This document shows positions 1 through 21,381 of a DNA stretch of 21,381 nucleotides, one piece after another. Numbering within the stretch: position 1 is the stretch's first letter; every line of letters starts with the position of its first letter. Position numbers and translations under genes: made by a program. The notes under the pieces were generated by a model, which ran no database searches, was not told the DNA's origin, and saw nothing but the letters and a program-made list of their open reading frames with translations. The stretch comes from a virus: positions 1 through 21,381 of IMG/VR virus record IMGVR_UViG_3300048011_000330; one strand, written 5' to 3'.

Positions 1-701
1 GTACATATTTTAATCAAGAATGGGGTTCTGTATTGTATAGCAATAATGCAGATTTTACTTCTGATACTTATGACATATCAGTCCCTTTTGAACATCATAA
101 GTTTGAAAGGTTTTTAGGCACAACAGCACAATGGGGTTGGTCAGCAGATGACAAGCAAGAACCTTACTTAGGTAAACCGTTGTTATTTTATGCGCACAAA
201 GTTACCGATGGAACACCAATACAGTTTTCTGAAACAGTAGGTGGCACAACACATCAAATAGACGATTATTACATACCTGCTAACAACGTTGACCCAACAG
301 ATAACGATTCACAAAGTTTACATTTTGGTGGACAGAAGAATGAGTATACAGGTGTATATTCAGAAAACTCTTTATTTTACACTTATTATAGAAATTACAT
401 TGAAGAGGTGTTTGATATATCAAGAAGGCTTTTCACATTCAAGGCTTTTTTACCAGTCAGCATAATTAGTAACATAAAACTTAATGACAAGGTTGTAATA
501 TTTGACAATGCTTACAAAATAAATAAATTAACTACTAATTTCGAAACAGGTATATCAAATTTAGAGTTAATAAACGTAACGCAAGACTTAGAATACGACC
601 CAGCTGAAGTGCAAGAAGATTTAATAGTTACAATAGATACAGGTAGAGTAACAGCAGATACCACGAATAAAACAGCAGACGCAACAATAATAATATTCTA
701 A
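1..701 (+). CDS. Tail-associated structural protein, 5' end missing
   Basis: The reading frame is open to the left edge (codon phase starts at base 3), so this is the C-terminal part of a longer gene; the TTG at 33 is not a convincing start. The visible part is beta-rich. Near its end it has a segment of the form NIKLND-VVIFDNAYKIN-LTTNF-TG-LEL, which I associate with large tail or baseplate proteins of flavobacterial phages. It lies directly upstream of the tape measure gene, which supports a distal tail or baseplate role. The C-terminus is Thr/Ala/Asp-rich (TADTT, TADAT), a pattern that recurs in the small protein at 9426-9593. The exact role is uncertain; a receptor-binding or minor tail protein is equally possible. 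Confidence 0.6.
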   Translation, partial: TYFNQEWGSVLYSNNADFTSDTYDISVPFEHHKFERFLGTTAQWGWSADDKQEPYLGKPLLFYAHKVTDGTPIQFSETVGGTTHQIDDYYIPANNVDPTDNDSQSLHFGGQKNEYTGVYSENSLFYTYYRNYIEEVFDISRRLFTFKAFLPVSIISNIKLNDKVVIFDNAYKINKLTTNFETGISNLELINVTQDLEYDPAEVQEDLIVTIDTGRVTADTTNKTADATIIIF

Positions 702-704
702 GAA

Positions 705-851
705 ATGATAGGAAATATATTACAAATGCTTGAAATAGCAAAGCGAGAAAAGAAGATAGGAGAATACACCCATATAGCGTTAGGTAAGTACAAATACCCA
801 GAATCAATAAAAGAAGCGTACAAACAGTTTAAACAGGAGTTATGTCAATAA
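705..851 (+). CDS. Small hypothetical protein (48 aa) upstream of tape measure
   Basis: An ATG lies three bases after the stop of the upstream tail gene, and the frame runs 48 codons before overlapping the tape measure start by 10 bp. The product is basic and helical (MIGNILQMLEIAKREKK, then YKYPESIKEAYKQFKQ). No family is recognised. Tight packing between two tail genes suggests it is real and possibly a tail assembly factor, but nothing in the sequence proves this. Confidence 0.5.
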   Translation: MIGNILQMLEIAKREKKIGEYTHIALGKYKYPESIKEAYKQFKQELCQ

Positions 852-2635
852 AGAAAACAATAGAAATAGAAGCTAGAGTAGGTAAAGCTGAAAAAGATTT
901 AAAGGGGTTAGATAAAGGATTACAAAAGGTAGATAAAAGCGTTGAAGATATTGGTGAATCTTCTAAAGAAACCAATAAGGAAATGGGCGCTTTTGGTAGC
1001 GCAATGGATAAAGTTACAAGAGGTGGTTATAGCGGATTCACAAAAATGACTAGAGCTATAAGAACTGGCAACATAAGTTTAAAAGCTATGAAGGTTGCAT
1101 TAATAGCAACAGGGGTAGGTATTTTTGTCGCTGCTATCGGTGCTTTAGCTGCCAACTTTGGAAATAGCGAAAAAGGGGGTAATAAACTTAATAAAATGCT
1201 GGCACAAATTGGTGTAGTTTCAGGTAATGTAACTGACATTTTATACAGTCTTAGTCAAAGTGTAGTTTCTTTTTTTAGTGGCAATTTTGATGAGGCTGCT
1301 AAATCCTTTGAAGAAGCTACCAATAGAATGAAAAACTTTGGTGAAGAAACTAGACGTGAAATAGCATTACAAGGAGAGCTAGCAGATAAACAAGCAGACT
1401 TAGTAAAACTAGAAAGACAACTTGTAATAGATAGGGCAGAAGCTAATAAAAAACGTGCAGACCTTCTTGATAAATCAGCAAACAAAGAAGAATTTACTGC
1501 AAAGCAAAGGATAGCATTTTTAGAAGAAGCAGGTAGAATTGATGAGGAAATAACAAATAAAGAAATTGAAGCTGCCAAAACAAGACTTCTAATAAAAGAA
1601 CAAGAAAATACCTTGAGTGAAAGTTCAGCAGAAGATTTAGCGGAAGAAGCTAGATTGAAAGCAGAAGTTATTAACCTAGATACACAAAGATTAACTAAAG
1701 CTAAAACTGTTACTGCACAAATCATAGCAGCAAAAAGGGAAGAAGCAACAAGGTTAAAAGGTATTAGAGATGCAGAAGCAAAAGAAATAGCTGACAAAGA
1801 AAAAGAACAAGAAGCTTTAAACAAGGCTGAACAAGACGCTATTGATGCAGAAGAAAAACTTAAAGCTGAACAAGCCGCTAAAGCAGCAGATGAAGCAGCT
1901 AAAACCGAAACAGCTCGTCAGGACGCAATAGACGCCATACAAGATGCGTATAAACTAAAGCGTGAGGACAAGGCAGCGCAGGAGGCTGAAAATGCAGAGA
2001 TGGCTAAAATAGAGCTAGAAGAATCACGTGCTTTAGCAGAGTTAGATCGCTTAGATGCAACTGAAGCGCAAAAGGCAGATGTTATAGCTTTTTATGCAAA
2101 CAAAAAACAAGCAGTAAAAGACGACGAAGCTGAAAAAGAATTAGCACTTGACCAACAAGTAAAAGACGCCAAAAAGAAAATGGCAATGGACGGCCTTGCA
2201 TTACTGGGCCAAGTAGCAGGCGAAGGCAGTAAAGTAGGAAAAGCAGTAGCCTTAACCCAAACAATTATAAGCGGAATAGAAGGTGTGCAAAATGCTTATA
2301 AAACAGCACAAGATTCACCAATAACAACCGTGTTTCCAGCTTACCCAATTATTCAGGCAGGGTTAGCCGCAGGCTTTGCAGCTGCGCAAGTCTCAGCAAT
2401 TAAAAAAACACCAGCCACAGCAAAAGGCGGTGGAGGGGGTGGAGGCGTAAACGTACCACGTAGCACGCCAAGTGTTCCAAGTTTTAACGTCGTAGGGGCA
2501 GCACCAGAAAACCAGCTAGCACAGTCCTTAGGGCAGCAAGAAAAAGAGCCTGTAAAAGCTTACGTAGTCAGCAATGAAGTTACAAATGCGCAAGCCTTAG
2601 ATCGTAACATTGTAGAATCAGCTTCACTAGGATAA
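842..2635 (+). CDS. Tail tape measure protein
   Basis: This 597-residue protein sets tail length and is threaded through the tail tube. The N-terminus (residues 1-60) is charged and helical. A hydrophobic segment sits at about 83-107 (ALIATGVGIFVAAIGALAA), as is usual for tape measures. A very long Glu/Lys/Ala-rich coiled coil follows from about 150 to 445. A second Ala/Gly-rich stretch ends in a poly-Gly hinge near residue 530. Tape measure length usually scales at about 1.5 angstrom per residue, so a tail near 90 nm is inferred. It is short compared with lambda gpH. The ATG overlaps the upstream small gene by 10 bp, with an AGGAG unusually close to it. Confidence 0.88.
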   Translation: MSIKKTIEIEARVGKAEKDLKGLDKGLQKVDKSVEDIGESSKETNKEMGAFGSAMDKVTRGGYSGFTKMTRAIRTGNISLKAMKVALIATGVGIFVAAIGALAANFGNSEKGGNKLNKMLAQIGVVSGNVTDILYSLSQSVVSFFSGNFDEAAKSFEEATNRMKNFGEETRREIALQGELADKQADLVKLERQLVIDRAEANKKRADLLDKSANKEEFTAKQRIAFLEEAGRIDEEITNKEIEAAKTRLLIKEQENTLSESSAEDLAEEARLKAEVINLDTQRLTKAKTVTAQIIAAKREEATRLKGIRDAEAKEIADKEKEQEALNKAEQDAIDAEEKLKAEQAAKAADEAAKTETARQDAIDAIQDAYKLKREDKAAQEAENAEMAKIELEESRALAELDRLDATEAQKADVIAFYANKKQAVKDDEAEKELALDQQVKDAKKKMAMDGLALLGQVAGEGSKVGKAVALTQTIISGIEGVQNAYKTAQDSPITTVFPAYPIIQAGLAAGFAAAQVSAIKKTPATAKGGGGGGGVNVPRSTPSVPSFNVVGAAPENQLAQSLGQQEKEPVKAYVVSNEVTNAQALDRNIVESASLG

Positions 2636-16113: not shown

Positions 16114-16516
16114 AGGCGACAAAAGAACAAAAGCCTACAAAGAATGGAAAGCCAAATACGAGAAACAGAGTAAAGGGTTTGGCGATACCGTTGAGAAAAT
16201 TACAGAAGCAACAGGTATTAAGAAAGCAGTTAAATTTTTAGCTGGTGAAGACTGCGGTTGTGATGAGCGTAAAGACAAATTGAATTACCTTTTTCCTTAT
16301 CAAAAACCAAACTGTTTTACTGAGCAAGAGTTCAATTATTTAATAGACTACTTTGCCAGCAAACCAAATAAGCTTACAGTTGAAAAACAAACTGAAGTAT
16401 TAGAAATTTATAATAGGGTATTCAACGATAAAAGAGAGCTTTCAAGTTGCAGCACTTGTTTTTTAAATGGTGTACATAAAAAGCTTGAACGTTTATTTAA
16501 GGAATACCAAGATTGA
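16100..16516 (+). CDS. Cys-rich hypothetical protein of Bacteroidetes phages
   Basis: 138 residues overlapping the sigma gene by 14 bp. The conserved core (GFGDTVEKITEATGIKKAVK, FLAGEDCGCDERKDKLNYLF) is followed by a Cys pair at 117/120 (SCSTCFLNGVHKKLERLF), with C52, C54 and C72 also present. I recall this family from flavobacterial phages and prophages with no function assigned. Cysteine spacing suggests a zinc site. Its position between a sigma factor and a nuclease points to DNA or RNA metabolism; it might be an anti-sigma or a polymerase-binding protein. Confidence 0.6.
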   Translation: MTEFKGDKRTKAYKEWKAKYEKQSKGFGDTVEKITEATGIKKAVKFLAGEDCGCDERKDKLNYLFPYQKPNCFTEQEFNYLIDYFASKPNKLTVEKQTEVLEIYNRVFNDKRELSSCSTCFLNGVHKKLERLFKEYQD

Positions 16517-16893
16517 AAGAAAAAGATCTTTATGAATATCTACAGCGGTGTTGTTATACTGACCTTGTTATGGCAAAAAACCCAGTTAGTAAATGGGATT
16601 GCTATAGCCCAAATGCAAGGCATAGAATAGAGCTGAAGTGCAGAGCAAAGCATTATGATACTTTAATAATTGAAAAAATTAAGTACGATGCTTTACTTAA
16701 AAAAGCCCTTGACAATGATGATCAGCCTATTTACATAAATAGCACACCGCAGGGGGTTTACAGGTTTAACCTTTTTTTAGTTACTCCAGTTTGGCAGGTG
16801 AAGTATTTAAAAAAAACAACTACATTTACAAACACAAACAAAGTAGCTAAGCAGATTGCAATGTTACCAGTAATAGACGCTGAAATATTATGA
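16513..16893 (+). CDS. PD-(D/E)XK nuclease-like protein
   Basis: Starts at TTG in a TTGA overlap with the previous stop; no ATG occurs until residue 20. The 126-residue product has D29 in KWDCYSPNARHRIELKCRAK, with E40-x-K42 following, which is the D...ExK arrangement of the restriction-endonuclease fold, then KIKYDALLKKALDNDDQPIY and YRFNLFLVTPVWQVKYL. It may resolve recombination junctions or trim DNA ends. Its small size, one conserved active-site cluster and lack of other domains leave the substrate open. Confidence 0.6.
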   Translation: MKEKDLYEYLQRCCYTDLVMAKNPVSKWDCYSPNARHRIELKCRAKHYDTLIIEKIKYDALLKKALDNDDQPIYINSTPQGVYRFNLFLVTPVWQVKYLKKTTTFTNTNKVAKQIAMLPVIDAEIL

Positions 16894-17222
16894 CTGAAAA
16901 ATACAATTACCAAAAGAAGCTAGAAAACCTTGAGGACTTACAGCTAACAACAAACTTACTTATTTTACAAGAACAGATTGCTGAGTGGTGCAACAAACAC
17001 CCAAAGAATGAAAACCTGTCATCGGTACGTGAAGCCCTGTTGAATGTTACTTTTATTGTAAATAAATATCAAGTTGAACGCGGTACTTACCACCTAGCGC
17101 TTGAGGATTATAGAACACGTGAACTTAGGGCTATATCAAGAGCGCGTGAAGCTGACAAGCGTATAGAGTGGCTAGAAACAGAATTAGAAATACATAACAA
17201 GAAAAAAGAATTAGGCTTATGA
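16890..17222 (+). CDS. Coiled-coil hypothetical protein (110 aa)
   Basis: ATGA overlap with the upstream nuclease. The product is helical throughout, with an N-terminal Lys/Glu-rich helix (YNYQKKLENLEDLQLTTNLL) and a long charged C-terminal helix (ALEDYRTRELRAISRAREAD, KRIEWLETELEIHNKKKEL). I recall similar proteins in flavobacterial phages without function. It may bridge other replication proteins. The next gene overlaps its stop. Confidence 0.6.
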   Translation: MTEKYNYQKKLENLEDLQLTTNLLILQEQIAEWCNKHPKNENLSSVREALLNVTFIVNKYQVERGTYHLALEDYRTRELRAISRAREADKRIEWLETELEIHNKKKELGL

Positions 17223-17458
17223 GCGATAGTGTAACAAAGTATTTTGAGAATGTAGACAGCACTATACCTATCAAGAAAACAGACAAGATAGTAGATGATG
17301 TAATAAGCAAATACAGACAACGTAGTGAACTAGGAATACAAAAGTATAACACAACATTACAAGACAACCCAGACGGCTTCTATGCGTTTTTAAACCACCT
17401 CCAGGAGGAACTAATGGATGCCACTTTATATATACAAAAACTAAAAAACCAACAATGA
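17219..17458 (+). CDS. Small helical protein with a MazG-like motif
   Basis: 79 residues: SDSVTKYFENVDSTIPIKKT, then IVDDVISKYRQRSELGIQKY, NPDGFYAFLNHLQEELMDAT, LYIQKL. The C-terminal EELMDATLY resembles the EExxD metal-binding helix of all-alpha NTP pyrophosphohydrolases (MazG), and the Arg-rich helix before it is also seen in such families. Only one half of the usual metal site is visible, so catalytic activity is uncertain. A nucleotide-pool role would fit base modification in the same genome. Confidence 0.5.
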   Translation: MSDSVTKYFENVDSTIPIKKTDKIVDDVISKYRQRSELGIQKYNTTLQDNPDGFYAFLNHLQEELMDATLYIQKLKNQQ

Positions 17459-17574
17459 GAGAAAAAACATTAATTGAAATGCGTAATAGGATATTGAACC
17501 TTGAAAAAGTTGTAACGGTTGCGCTGGTTAGGGTTGAGGCATTAGAAAAAAACTTTGAAAAAAAAGATGAATAG
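17455..17574 (+). CDS. Very small hypothetical protein (39 aa)
   Basis: ATGA overlap with the upstream gene and a stop just before a candidate promoter. The product is MREKTLIEMRNRILNLEKVV, then TVALVRVEALEKNFEKKDE, a single amphipathic helix that might form a short coiled coil. No family is recognised; continuous coupling with its neighbour is the support for it. Confidence 0.5.
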   Translation: MREKTLIEMRNRILNLEKVVTVALVRVEALEKNFEKKDE

Positions 17575-17575
17575 T

Positions 17576-17607
17576 TTTGTTTGTTCTTAAAATGTTAATT
17601 ACATTAG
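17576..17607 (+). promoter_or_regulatory. Candidate Bacteroidetes promoter
   Basis: TTTG (17576-17579) and TACATTAG (17600-17607) are 20 bases apart. The second element matches TAnnTTTG with one mismatch. It starts two bases after the stop of the small gene and would drive the gene at 17636. Confidence 0.5.
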
Positions 17608-17635
17608 CATCAAATAACAATAAAAAACAACTATT

Positions 17636-17851
17636 ATGACAACACAAGATTTAATTACGAAAGCTGAAATCAGCGACACAATTTTCGAAGCGCTTTCACC
17701 TGCTTACAAACACACAAACAAGTATCAATATGATTCTGACTTACGTTACAGGTATTTATTAGCAGAAGCAGTGCTTCAAATAGACAAAAAATTAATTCCA
17801 AACACAGTTACGCCAACAGAAGCAGTAAAAGAATTTTTTAACAGACTGTAA
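17636..17851 (+). CDS. Hypothetical protein (71 aa)
   Basis: Has its own candidate promoter upstream and a strong terminator downstream, so it forms a short transcription unit. The product is MTTQDLITKAEISDTIFEAL, then SPAYKHTNKYQYDSDLRYRY, LLAEAVLQIDKKLIPNTVTP and a helical end. Helical with several Tyr; no family is recognised. Confidence 0.6.
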   Translation: MTTQDLITKAEISDTIFEALSPAYKHTNKYQYDSDLRYRYLLAEAVLQIDKKLIPNTVTPTEAVKEFFNRL

Positions 17852-17858
17852 AACCACA

Positions 17859-17880
17859 GGGGGCTTCGGCCCCCCTTTTT
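17859..17880 (+). terminator. Strong intrinsic terminator with TTCG tetraloop
   Basis: GGGGGC (17859-17864), loop TTCG, GCCCCC (17869-17874), then five T residues. UUCG loops are very stable. It closes the 71-residue gene upstream. Confidence 0.93.
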
Positions 17881-17893
17881 AAACAACAACAAT

Positions 17894-18109
17894 ATGAGTT
17901 ACAAAGTTCCTTACGACGTACAAAATATGACCGATGAACGGTTACAGTACGTTATTGACAATGCAGAGTATTATCTATACGGTTACAGCCGTGATTGCCG
18001 TTATGAGTTAAACCGCAGGCGCAAGATTGCTGAAGCTTATGAGTACGAACAAATGATAGCCGAATGGCAAATAACTAAACAAAACGAGCTCTATGATTAC
18101 TTTACTTAA
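17894..18109 (+). CDS. Hypothetical protein (71 aa)
   Basis: Product MSYKVPYDVQNMTDERLQYV, then IDNAEYYLYGYSRDCRYELN, RRRKIAEAYEYEQMIAEWQI and a Tyr-rich end. Charged and helical; no family is recognised. It overlaps the exonuclease start by 17 bp, suggesting co-translation with it. Confidence 0.6.
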   Translation: MSYKVPYDVQNMTDERLQYVIDNAEYYLYGYSRDCRYELNRRRKIAEAYEYEQMIAEWQITKQNELYDYFT

Positions 18110-18899
18110 TGGCGAACATTGGATGCCAGATGAACTTACTGCGGAAATGCACGATGATGGTTTTTATTATAACGAACTAAGCACAACAAAGGTATTAAGC
18201 ACAAGCAGCCTTAGCCAAATACTAAGCAACCCAGAAGAGTTCTATAAAGAATTAAAAGGCCGTGAACGTAAACCAAGCGACGCGCTACGTATGGGCAACC
18301 TTGTTCATTGGGGTTACCTTGAGCCAGAAAAGTTTTATAAATTAACTTTTGTAGATGCAGAGCGTACAAACGCAAAAGAGTTTACTACGGCAGTTGCAGA
18401 ACACGGTGTTAGAAACGTTTACAAGGCGAAAGAGCAACGTATAGCCGAAAGCTATGTTGACGTACTAAACAACAAAGAGCCGTTAATTAATATACGTAAG
18501 AATGCAGAATTAGAAGTACCAGCTATTAAGATGCTGCTTGACATACCAATTAGGGGCAAAGCAGATATGATTAGCGGTGATACCATTTATGATTTAAAGA
18601 CTACACGTGTAAACCCTAGCGACTTTAACTGGTGGAAAGTACGTTCAATGAATTACGATTTACAGGCCTTTATTTATTGCCAGCTTTTTGAGAAGGATTA
18701 TTTTAGCTTTATACCAATTAACAAAATGAATCACCGTGTAGGAATTGTACATTGCAGCAAGGACATACTTGAAAGCGGTGAGGAAAAGTTTTACAAAGCT
18801 ATTGAAATTTACAAGCGCGATTTTATGGGCAAGGAACTTGACGAAATAGCTGACAGCCTTAGCCGCACAATAGAGGAAACAATAATTACTAAACCGTAA
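18093..18899 (+). CDS. RecE-like PD-(D/E)XK exonuclease
   Basis: 268 residues with the layout of RecE-type (exodeoxyribonuclease VIII C-terminal, DUF3799) nucleases: a short N-terminal lead (FYYNELSTTKVLSTSSLSQI), MGNLVHWGYLEPEKF with H72, E141, RGKADMISGDTIYDLKTTRV with D158, D167 and K169, and NYDLQAFIYCQLFEKDYF with the Q191-xxx-Y195 motif. These residues are the metal-binding and QxxxY features of 5'-3' exonucleases that make single strands for annealing. It probably partners with the ERF protein, though the genes are about 4 kb apart, in different transcription units. A C-terminal helix bundle ends the protein. Confidence 0.82.
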   Translation: MITLLNGEHWMPDELTAEMHDDGFYYNELSTTKVLSTSSLSQILSNPEEFYKELKGRERKPSDALRMGNLVHWGYLEPEKFYKLTFVDAERTNAKEFTTAVAEHGVRNVYKAKEQRIAESYVDVLNNKEPLINIRKNAELEVPAIKMLLDIPIRGKADMISGDTIYDLKTTRVNPSDFNWWKVRSMNYDLQAFIYCQLFEKDYFSFIPINKMNHRVGIVHCSKDILESGEEKFYKAIEIYKRDFMGKELDEIADSLSRTIEETIITKP

Positions 18900-18900
18900 A

Positions 18901-19110
18901 TTGTTTAAAGAGGATATATTACTTTTTTATAAACTAGCGCTCTTAGATTTACGTGAAGGCACACCAGTAAGAGAACTTGAAAGTGCTATTGATTTTTATG
19001 AGAGCATAGAAAATTATGAGGCTTGTGCTGGTATATTACAAGCAATAAATGACGCACAATATTTAACAATAAAAGGAATAAAACAATTAATAAATGATAC
19101 AGACGATTAA
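18901..19110 (+). CDS. Small acidic hypothetical protein (69 aa)
   Basis: Starts with TTG two bases after the exonuclease TAA; an in-frame TAA at 18883-18885 excludes an earlier start. The product is FKEDILLFYKLALLDLREGT, then PVRELESAIDFYESIENYEA, CAGILQAINDAQYLTIKGI and a short acidic end (DTDD). It resembles helical adaptor proteins and has no clear family. The next gene overlaps it by 17 bp. Confidence 0.55.
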   Translation: MFKEDILLFYKLALLDLREGTPVRELESAIDFYESIENYEACAGILQAINDAQYLTIKGIKQLINDTDD

Positions 19111-19528
19111 ACAATTAGTAGAAGTAGAATCAGGATTACCTGATATAAGTTTACGAAATAGAAAACAAGTAACAGTAGATGCACGAATAATATATGCCGT
19201 GCTATGTTTAAAACATACTAAAGGCATTTCTTATGAACGTATTGCCAAGGAGGTAAATAGAGATCATAGTTCAGTTGTTCATTACAAAAAACTGTTTGAA
19301 AGTTGGCAACAGTTCCCTCGCCTTTACAGTGACAAACTAGATGCGTATAAGCGAGTAAATGATATACTAGAACGCGAACGTGATGAAATAGATGATTCAA
19401 CTGATTTGTACTTAATGTATAAAAAAGAAAACATTATATTGCGGAAAGAAAATGCCGCTTTGCAAGCTACATTGAAAAAGCTTGAGGAACGAATAAAACA
19501 ATTACAAAAATACGAACCAATATGGTAG
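19094..19528 (+). CDS. DnaA domain IV-like DNA-binding protein with coiled coil
   Basis: 144 residues. Residues 24-65 (KQVTVDARIIYAVLCLKHTK, GISYERIAKEVNRDHSSVVH, YKKLF) match the helix-turn-helix and RDHSSVxH signature of DnaA domain IV, which reads DnaA boxes. There is no ATPase domain. Residues about 108-139 are a coiled coil (ENIILRKENAALQATLKKLE, ERIKQLQKY) likely used for dimerisation. It may mark the phage replication origin or compete with host DnaA. Known phages carry similar truncated DnaA-like proteins. No convincing cluster of DnaA boxes was seen in the window. Confidence 0.72.
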   Translation: MIQTIKQLVEVESGLPDISLRNRKQVTVDARIIYAVLCLKHTKGISYERIAKEVNRDHSSVVHYKKLFESWQQFPRLYSDKLDAYKRVNDILERERDEIDDSTDLYLMYKKENIILRKENAALQATLKKLEERIKQLQKYEPIW

Positions 19529-19617
19529 CTTCTAAACTTTTATTATTGATTTTGTTTTGGATTATATTGTTGGCATCAATATGGACATACTTTGAAGATA
19601 AAATGAAAGGGAAATGA
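19522..19617 (+). CDS. Tiny single-pass membrane protein (31 aa)
   Basis: ATG overlaps the end of the DnaA-like gene and the stop is in an ATGA overlap with the next start. Product MVASKLLLLILFWIILLASI, then WTYFEDKMKGK: one transmembrane helix and a charged end. The double overlap and the clean hydrophobic segment support reality; function is unknown. Confidence 0.5.
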   Translation: MVASKLLLLILFWIILLASIWTYFEDKMKGK

Positions 19618-19832
19618 AATTATTTGAAGATGAATGGGGTGTTGATAAGAGCCCCCAAGATGACACAGAAATAACTACTACATTACTTTACTTCAGTAAA
19701 GATGAGTTGAAAGAATTTAAAAGGCTTTGCAAGGCTGGTATAAAAAAAGAGTTCGGCCAAGAGTTCCAACAAAAGGGGAACCTCAGCGACTTCTTATTAA
19801 TATTATTACGCAAGCATTATGAAAACATATAA
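19614..19832 (+). CDS. Hypothetical protein (72 aa)
   Basis: ATGA overlap with the previous gene. Product MKLFEDEWGVDKSPQDDTEI, then TTTLLYFSKDELKEFKRLCK, AGIKKEFG, GNLSDFLLILLRKHYENI. A strand (TTLLYFS) before two helices could be a small ribbon-helix-helix regulator, but no hallmark basic motif is visible. It overlaps the dioxygenase start by 14 bp, so a link to that gene is likely. Confidence 0.55.
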   Translation: MKLFEDEWGVDKSPQDDTEITTTLLYFSKDELKEFKRLCKAGIKKEFGQEFQQKGNLSDFLLILLRKHYENI

Positions 19833-20688
19833 GTTAAATCGCAAGCTTGATGATAAACAAGCAGCCAAATTAAAAACAAAATACCTTGACAAAAGGCATT
19901 ATGACATCTTAATAACTAATGATGCAGATGGTTATGACGCCAATACTGGTCAATTACTTTTTAGGTTTAGGAAAAACGCTATACCTTTTGAAACACTCAA
20001 ACAAGGTTATGAGTCCTTTAAAGGCAGTATTGAACTAACTGAAAGCCGTGGCGCAGCAAGTGGAAGCAGTCACAAGCGTATCCGTAAAGACGGCAGCGTG
20101 AGTAACATTACTGTCGGCAATAAGGTTGAGTCTGGTAGCGTTGGTTATATGGACAAAAATGCGATGGTCCATTACTGTCGTAAAACCGCATTCGCTAAAA
20201 AGTACTTTGATGACTTTAAAGCTGGGGTTCCTTTTGTGCAATATGTTGACAAATTATATAATGAACTATGCCCTGAGCATTATGCAAAACAAAAAGCGAT
20301 AGCGCTAGGCACGAATCAAAACTACGTTATTGACGGAACTTCATTTACAACCGTAACAGTAAATAAAAACTTTCGTACAGCGGTTCATAAAGATGCTGGC
20401 GATTACCAAGAAGGCTTTGGGAACTTAATTGTTTACCGTGAGGGCGATTATAGTGGCGGTTATTTTGTGCTCCCTGAATACGGTGTAGCAGTTGACTTAC
20501 ACAATACAGATATATTATTTGTAGATGTACACAAGTGGCACGGCAATACAGAATATACAAACTGTTCAGATGACTGGTTACGTATTAGCTTTGTAATGTA
20601 TTACCGCGAATATATGTATAAATGCAAACAACCAGCTGAAGAGCTGCATCAAGTAAAAATAGATAAAACAGGATTCTTAACTTTATAA
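19819..20688 (+). CDS. Tet/JBP-type Fe(II)/2-oxoglutarate dioxygenase
   Basis: The 289-residue protein has a 2OG-Fe(II) oxygenase core in its C-terminal half: VTVNKNFRTAVHKDAGDYQE (H190, D192), FGNLIVYREGDYSGGYFVLP, EYGVAVDLHNTDILFVDVHK, HGNT (H241) and WLRISFVMYYRE (R255, 2-oxoglutarate binding). This is the pattern of the phage Tet/JBP family, which hydroxylates thymine or 5-methylcytosine in DNA. Residues 76-115 are a Gly/Ser/Lys-rich insert of unknown role. The neighbouring PD-(D/E)XK-like and aGPT-Pplase-like genes make DNA base modification the best guess; a protein substrate cannot be excluded. Confidence 0.78.
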   Translation: MKTYKLNRKLDDKQAAKLKTKYLDKRHYDILITNDADGYDANTGQLLFRFRKNAIPFETLKQGYESFKGSIELTESRGAASGSSHKRIRKDGSVSNITVGNKVESGSVGYMDKNAMVHYCRKTAFAKKYFDDFKAGVPFVQYVDKLYNELCPEHYAKQKAIALGTNQNYVIDGTSFTTVTVNKNFRTAVHKDAGDYQEGFGNLIVYREGDYSGGYFVLPEYGVAVDLHNTDILFVDVHKWHGNTEYTNCSDDWLRISFVMYYREYMYKCKQPAEELHQVKIDKTGFLTL

Positions 20689-20691
20689 ACT

Positions 20692-21156
20692 ATGGACAGC
20701 AACAAAAAAAAACAAGCTAATGCATTTGAGGGGTTTGCATATAACCACCTCATTAACGAATTAAAGTGGACATTAACACATTACGTAACAGAAGAAGATC
20801 AACGGATTAAAGGTGAGAACCACCAAGGAATTGAAATAAAGAATGATCAATCTTATAATAATACTGGCAACCTTTATATCAGTGTGAAACGTGTTTACAA
20901 TGGCTTTGAGTATGGCAGCGGCATTTATCGTGATACTGAAACAAAACAACTATTTTACCTAATAGGCGATGAGAACAATTTTTGGCTAATAGCTACTAAG
21001 CATTTAAAAGCGTACTATGAGCAAAACAATTTAAAACTAATACCAGGATTTAGAACACATACAGGCGGTCAGGAATACGGTTTTTTGCTACCTATTGAAA
21101 AGGCTGAAAAGCTTTCTGCTTATAGTTACACAAACCAACAGGTTTTAGATTTATGA
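20692..21156 (+). CDS. PD-(D/E)XK nuclease-like protein
   Basis: 154 residues. N-terminal helix FEGFAYNHLINELKWTLTHY, then HQGIEIKNDQSYNNTGNLYI with E48-x-K50 and D52, YGSGIYRDTETKQLFYLIGD, FWLIATKHLKAYYEQNN and a C-terminal EYGFLLPIEKAEKLSAYSY. The E-x-K and the preceding helix with a glutamate are consistent with a restriction-endonuclease fold, and the G-EIK-D...TGNLYI pattern is shared with phage nuclease-like proteins I recall. It is encoded 3 bp after the dioxygenase stop, so it may act on modified or unmodified DNA. Whether it cuts DNA is unknown. Confidence 0.62.
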   Translation: MDSNKKKQANAFEGFAYNHLINELKWTLTHYVTEEDQRIKGENHQGIEIKNDQSYNNTGNLYISVKRVYNGFEYGSGIYRDTETKQLFYLIGDENNFWLIATKHLKAYYEQNNLKLIPGFRTHTGGQEYGFLLPIEKAEKLSAYSYTNQQVLDL

Positions 21157-21381
21157 TAGGCAGATACTGCGAACTTAATAACCTGCAAGAAGTAAAAGAC
21201 CTTACAGCTGGGTTAGACTTTAGGCAGCCTCAATACAGGCGCGAAGTATTCTTACGGTTTTATGAATATCACATAAAATACAAGGGCCACGCTGGGGCGG
21301 TTTATTATGCCTTTCCTTACATATTTGAACAAATGAATATGACAACAGAGGAAAAGTATTGGTTTTGCTTTATAAATGGGT
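21153..21381 (+). CDS. aGPT-Pplase / 5-hmU DNA kinase helical-domain-like protein, 3' end cut off
   Basis: ATGA overlap with the previous gene; 76 residues are visible before the window ends: GRYCELNNLQEVKDLTAGLD, then FRQPQYRREVFLRFYEYHIK, YKGHAGAVYYAFPYIFEQM and KYWFCFING. The RFYE-H-KY-HAG-VYY and WFxFING pattern resembles the alpha-glutamyl/putrescinyl-thymine pyrophosphorylase (clade 3) or 5-hmU DNA kinase helical-domain family, which turns hydroxymethyl-pyrimidines in phage DNA into hypermodified bases. The dioxygenase encoded upstream supports this. The domain boundaries and the usual TQNP motif lie beyond the window, so this call is tentative. Confidence 0.55.
   Translation, partial: MIGRYCELNNLQEVKDLTAGLDFRQPQYRREVFLRFYEYHIKYKGHAGAVYYAFPYIFEQMNMTTEEKYWFCFING

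Follow-up and report, generated by a model that had tools for sequence, protein, structure and literature searches.

The locus at the right edge of the window is likely (at a probability of about 0.68, with no biochemistry behind it) to encode a thymine hypermodification pathway composed of a TET/JBP-type dioxygenase, a P-loop kinase and an amino acid:DNA transferase (AADT), with second-step enzymes tethered to the sliding clamp of the host. The window is the whole stretch of DNA analyzed, IMG/VR virus record IMGVR_UViG_3300048011_000330 (21,381 bp). In this view, the TET would hydroxylate thymine of the phage DNA at its methyl group, giving 5-hydroxymethyluracil (5hmU), the kinase would phosphorylate the hydroxymethyl group of 5hmU, and the AADT would let an amino acid displace the (pyro)phosphate to yield an aminoacyl-type thymine. 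The second-step enzymes would be held on the host clamp via a convergent C-terminal QxxLF motif and, held there, would modify DNA during or just after replication; the modification would most likely shield phage DNA from host nucleases. The TET-AADT-kinase pathway itself is already known from actinophages. What is new is a cassette slot behind TET, a kinase-without-transferase version of it, and QxxLF tails across unrelated families of slot enzymes. If true, phages would be modifying DNA while copying it in a manner that has apparently not been described before, and it becomes testable how small phages that lack a sliding clamp of their own have new DNA modified early enough.

Genes of the locus and the phage that carries them

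A second public contig, IMGVR_UViG_3300048033_000671 (16,065 bp; L005/L083), overlaps positions 16230-21381 of the window with 99.96% identity over 5,152 bp and extends beyond its right edge, while its opposite end is 99.2% identical to window positions 1-1111. Because both ends of this contig match window ends, the two are inferred to join into a circular or permuted genome of, by arithmetic, about 31.2 kb. The only matches of the portal protein were the Nonlabens phages P12024S/L (35.6% identity), and the terminase is 50% identical to those of Flavobacterium phages. A scan of cellular genomes for the TET returned nothing but distant TETs in MAGs, and the host was therefore inferred via phage relatives: the source appears to be a marine phage of Bacteroidota, with Flavobacteriaceae hosts indicated.

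The TET gene (19819-20688, forward strand, 289 aa) encodes a TET/JBP-type 2-oxoglutarate/Fe(II) dioxygenase, a predicted DNA-base hydroxylase, 75% identical to gp26 of Nonlabens phage P12024L. It matched Pfam PF12851 (Tet_JBP) with 103.2 bits (cut-off 34.9, E=1.1e-29), and the metal/2OG residues H190-K-D192, H241 and R255 were invariant in a 16-sequence alignment that takes in a Coopervirus gp2 and Caulobacter phage Cr30, the HKD...H...R residues being constant from Bacteroidota to Mycobacterium and Caulobacter phage TETs. A preliminary description of the window had proposed a Tet/JBP-type dioxygenase; this claim held, both through the Tet_JBP profile and with H190, D192, H241 and R255 exactly as positioned there. 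PDB sequence searches with the TET and with the AADT gave no useful match. Hydroxylation of 5-methylcytosine (5mC) or T in DNA is a prediction, the substrate being inferred from gene context. The TET C-terminus, K-T-G-[YF]-L-x-L (window 20650-20685), is strongly conserved within the clade and is not QxxLF.

Upstream, a 72-aa protein with no assigned function (19614-19832, forward strand) overlaps the TET start by 14 bp. It had no Pfam family above cut-off, and its family (c2) lies beside TET in 63 of the 86 neighbourhoods. Window positions 19094-19528 encode a 144-aa protein in which PF08299 (36 bits) marks a helix-turn-helix of the DnaA C-terminal (domain IV) type; the protein also has a tail that resembles a coiled coil. 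Members of its family lie close to TET in 55/86 neighbourhoods, and the protein could possibly be a replication or regulatory factor.

Between TET and AADT lies N154 (20692-21156, forward strand), a 154-aa protein with no assigned function that is conserved beside TET, its family being present in 48/86 TET neighbourhoods. Its relatives are exclusively uncharacterised phage proteins. The alignment showed an invariant G-x-E-x-K (G46, E48, K50) and the AlphaFold model reached a pLDDT of 84; Foldseek against the PDB gave nothing at E<=0.001, and there was no Pfam family. The gene had been labelled PD-(D/E)XK-like in the preliminary description. It exists and is conserved next to TET, but the label was not confirmed: a PD-(D/E)XK nuclease is unsupported by Pfam or Foldseek/PDB, and the G-x-E-x-K motif is the sole hint.

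The following gene, cut by the window edge (21153-21381, forward strand, first 76 residues), encodes an AADT/ADDT (aGPT-Pplase2). The 76-residue fragment matched the aGPT-Pplase2 of Glutamicibacter phage Montesquieu (E=2e-10). The complete gene (L083:4924-6030) specifies 368 aa ending in KQQTKLF, and the full-length protein matched PF18724 'Amino acid:DNA transferase' with 73.5 bits (cut-off 26.2). An alignment including the SFP10 (Kuttervirus) and Hydro homologues retained 28 invariant columns over the whole set, with 28% identity to the Kuttervirus homologue. Of the earlier claim that the truncated protein was of aGPT-Pplase/5-hmU DNA kinase type, the aGPT-Pplase2 part held and the kinase part failed, since the PF18724 match rules out a kinase and the kinase is encoded directly after it, past the right end of the window. 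On contigs L092 and L093 (142 kb and 48 kb), the frame of the AADT homologue contains two in-frame TAG codons, and the phage perhaps decodes TAG as an amino acid.

The P-loop kinase (L083:6032-6607, outside the window, 191 aa, C-terminus AQSSLF) was recognised by its Walker A motif, G-x4-G-K-T, invariant in the alignment, and by its model fold (pLDDT 87), which was closest to shikimate and uridine-cytidine kinases, at E>0.001. It is homologous to Coopervirus gp4 (Mycobacterium phage Hydro gp4; hhalign 97%, E 3e-11), and a relative was also found in Montesquieu (gp39). No homology was detectable to the SFP10 'guanylate kinase', which may be the wrong gene for comparison. A weak PHROG label of terminase small subunit was ruled out by the small-molecule-kinase model match and by fusions with AADT. 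Searching viral contigs with the kinase gave 538 relatives, and most of the best 80 contigs had an adjacent TET and/or AADT. AADT-kinase fusion proteins of about 500 aa were encoded on L090, L091, L159, L175, L187, L192 and L197. Because the genes are fused in several contigs, the two enzymes are inferred to act in sequence, for which we regard the fusions as strong evidence. On the same seven contigs, a 310-312-aa gene precedes the fusion. Its relative in L088 (c49) resembles a PLP-dependent (ACC-deaminase-like) enzyme, and the product might be a tailoring decarboxylase.

Completeness of the pathway and identity of the base

A search to the right of position 21381, proposed in the preliminary description, was run via the overlapping contig and gave the full AADT, then the kinase, then terminase; the row thus reads TET, AADT, P-loop kinase and terminase genes. 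The proposal that a complete system of oxidation followed by activation or conjugation exists in a Bacteroidota phage is therefore supported at the level of gene content, which is shown, while a modified base in virion DNA is inferred. No tailoring gene, PLP or radical-SAM included, was recognised in the ~31 kb genome, and for this reason the aminoacyl-type thymine is the predicted end product.

As to the substrate of the TET, a thymidylate-synthase-type gene accompanies AADT in phages where no TET is detectable (Montesquieu, L087), and none is present in the TET records; in the long AADT contigs L088/L089 neither TET nor a thymidylate-synthase-type gene was seen. The TET would take the place of a nucleotide-level hydroxymethylase as the source of 5hmU, and thymine is therefore favoured over 5mC. 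This is an inference from gene context that rests on few cases, and the sequence leaves it undecided. It remains possible that in the same cassette the TET acts on 5mC, supplied by a host or phage C5-methyltransferase, to give a hypermodified cytosine. In support of this alternative, phage TETs with C5-methyltransferases and glycosyltransferases reportedly yield glycosylated cytosine (Burke 2021, via PMC12730594), and PF00145 (C5-methyltransferase) was found in 7/50 records, including the AADT and kinase carriers L057 and L070, where it lies close downstream of TET-AADT-kinase. Against it, there was no C5-methyltransferase match in either contig of the source phage, in the complete P12024L or in most longer TET contigs, and the substrate of the AADT/kinase pathway is described as 5hmdU (PMC6449724).

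A further alternative, that there is no working DNA-modification pathway and that the genes are decaying or target RNA or nucleotides, appears very unlikely. It draws on the fact that the evidence comes from sequence alone and on the unexplained N154. However, the catalytic residues are conserved across wide divergence, the module, fusions included, recurs in dozens of viral contigs, and DNA bases are the target of characterised relatives.

Several known systems are close to this pathway. In Rhodococcus phage Tonitrus, TET occurs together with aGPT-Pplase2 and a 5hmU kinase, a set reported as possibly serving thymidine hypermodification (PMC11955845), and the gene order of Mycobacterium phage Hydro is ParB-TET-AADT-kinase-terminase. 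This actinophage set (Tonitrus, Coopervirus such as Hydro) thus shares with the source phage the same three families, in nearly the same order and ending at terminase. The source phage differs by its inferred Bacteroidota host, by the 72-aa protein that replaces the ParB-like gene, by the insertion of N154, by the swapping of the slot with glycosyltransferases in sister phages and by the C-terminal QxxLF, absent from Hydro proteins. Salmonella phage ViI and Pseudomonas phage M6 (PMC6449724) have in common with it the kinase-then-transferase logic and a homologous AADT. In these phages, however, 5hmU is made at the nucleotide level and then incorporated, whereas in the source phage TET would make it in DNA; moreover, no PLP or radical-SAM tailoring gene was recognised here, and the SFP10 kinase tested had no detectable homology. 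In the TET-C5-methyltransferase-glycosyltransferase systems (Burke 2021; PF20691), as here, TET comes first and a second enzyme acts on the hydroxymethyl group, but the source phage has kinase and AADT instead of the TET-associated glycosyltransferase (TAGT), and no C5-methyltransferase match. In sister phages, TAGT (PF20691) sits in the same slot as the kinase and AADT of the source phage.

A swappable slot behind TET

In the favoured reading, small Flavobacteriia phages share a DNA-hypermodification cassette with a swappable slot behind TET, and this locus represents one of its alleles. Cassette swapping, like the clamp-motif pattern described below, was beyond what could be seen in the preliminary description. 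Among 86 collected TET-family genes, 64 had a gene of the TAGT family (PF20691) nearby, and other neighbourhoods contained AADT with kinase, kinase only, or further genes. The second-step enzyme thus depends on the phage, being kinase plus AADT in the source phage and a glycosyltransferase or methyltransferase in sister phages. The swap itself was observed when L033 was compared with L080 and L030: between flanks that are 87-95.5% identical, the slot holds a kinase in L033 and a TAGT in the other two. How phages change their DNA chemistry thereby becomes testable, one cassette being exchanged between ~90% identical flanks.

TET-N154-kinase loci without AADT on the contig were found in L026, L028, L029, L033, L038 and L143-L148. 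AADT was absent from 17/17 kinase-only records, and the AADT query used on these contigs does match in AADT contigs; the records are mostly fragments, the largest of 64.8 kb, so that the absence is unproven. The kinase-only allele would be expected to stop at a phosphorylated hydroxymethyl base. In L071 (10861-12739), two genes come after TET, one for a radical-SAM/SPASM protein and one for a 309-aa protein of unknown kind. Both products end in QxxLF, and the pair could possibly represent another base-modification chemistry.

A C-terminal QxxLF motif on slot enzymes

On aligning the slot proteins, the QxxLF pattern was spotted by eye and was counted afterwards in the same data, over distinct C-termini of TET/N154/TAGT-type loci and without correction for shared ancestry; the case for independent gains of the motif rests on how many unrelated protein families show it and on later checks. 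The strict C-terminal motif Q-x-x-[L/M]-F was present in 41/43 TAGT, 20/21 kinase and 16/36 N154 C-termini, in 2/8 AADT (source phage and L007) and in 2/7 C5-methyltransferases. It was found in none of 57 TETs and in only 7 of 1103 other forward ORFs, and six of these seven exceptions are modification-like or cassette genes. By Pfam, three are N6/N4-methyltransferases and one is a radical-SAM/SPASM protein; the others are the neighbour of the radical-SAM gene in the TET cassette, L184, which is methyltransferase-like by eye without a Pfam hit, and a 91-aa unknown. N154 of the source phage ends in QQVLDL (21136-21153, forward strand), a loose hexapeptide-type clamp-binding-like motif, and the broad pattern Q-x-x-[LMI]-(x)-[FLIV] fitted 33/36 distinct N154 C-termini versus 32/1552 other ORFs.

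Within single genomes, the match was confined to gp27 (TAGT) and gp28 (methyltransferase) among the 58 genes of P12024L, and to AADT and kinase among the 51 forward ORFs of the source phage. The AADT tail QTKLF and the kinase tail QSSLF fit the motif, position 2 not being aliphatic, and the last 10 residues of the kinase were modelled at a pLDDT of about 50; clamp-binding motifs frequently sit on disordered C-termini. Q, L and F are retained, whereas the residues between them and the choice among synonymous codons differ. An artefact of codon use or of gene junctions was ruled out, as synonymous codons, stop codons and downstream sequence all vary.

According to reviews, the clamp-binding motif is QL(S/D)LF or Q-phi-x-[L/M]-(x)-[F/L]. 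Flavobacteriaceae DinB C-termini carried QLx[F/L]xF in 20/20 examined, with one UmuC-like protein bearing QLNLF, and no recognisable phage beta clamp was found in 37 phage records. That DNA is modified at the replication fork through the host clamp is thus an inference, as are clamp binding and the base made, and there are no binding data. T4 offers a likeness, its alpha-glucosyltransferase being a DNA-modifying enzyme that docks on the sliding clamp gp45, although this binding was reported not to be what mainly sets the enzyme's share of glucosylation (PMC13216743). T4 has its own clamp and one such enzyme, whereas here the motif occurs on enzymes of unrelated families and suits the beta clamp of the host, no phage clamp having been found. 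The literature searched, not exhaustively, did not describe host-clamp motifs in modification enzymes of phages.

It remains possible that the pathway is as described but that QxxLF binds some other partner, from the host or the phage, or is a functionless lineage-specific tail. In its favour, binding data are lacking, the residues between Q and LF frequently deviate from QLxLF, the strongest consensus, with T, S or Q at position 2 of many motifs versus the preferred aliphatic residue, and a tail inherited within a family inflates the significance of the counts. Weighing on the clamp part of the main reading, 8/10 AADT relatives lack a clamp motif. QxxLF is absent in most kinases of other clades and in the actinophage enzymes examined. 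Against a tail unrelated to the clamp, the motif is common to the unrelated families TAGT, kinase, N154, methyltransferases, radical SAM and P-loop/GNAT, hardly any other gene of these genomes has it, its synonymous codons vary, and the host DinB C-terminus bears the same motif class.

The clamp-tether reading was then confronted with isolate-phage methyltransferases and P12024S, examined after the pattern had been noticed. Methyltransferase C-termini read QQKLF in Flavobacterium phage snork6-2, QLRLF in hemulen9-1 and QLKLF in Streptococcus phage IPP21; in Tetrasphaera phage TJE1, QAVLF lies about 20 residues before the end, and Bacteroides and Staphylococcus phage examples did not fit the strict motif. 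A bolder reading, towards which we lean by a narrow margin, is that unrelated DNA-modifying families (kinase, glycosyltransferase, amino acid transferase, N6/N4- and C5-methyltransferases, GNAT/P-loop protein, radical SAM) independently gained C-terminal tethers to the host beta clamp, coupling (hyper)modification to host-clamp-driven replication in phages of Bacteroidota and some other phages, and that the kinase-only allele ends at the phosphorylated hydroxymethyl base. The exchanged cassettes (sugar, amino acid/phosphate, GNAT or methyl) would have the clamp-type tag in common, and QxxLF could help to find DNA-modifying enzymes of phages that are as yet unknown.

P12024S and P12024L form a ready natural pair, with the same host, 96-99% identity around the slot and different cassettes. 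In P12024S (L218:6314-7632, gp24-gp25), TET-TAGT-methyltransferase gives way to a fusion of P-loop ATPase and GNAT and to a 59-aa protein, each with NQISLF at its C-terminus. Because the C-terminal motif rule points there, gp24 is inferred to be a candidate for an unknown DNA-modifying enzyme. Mom of phage Mu is a GNAT-fold enzyme, and gp24 is perhaps, by analogy, its counterpart.
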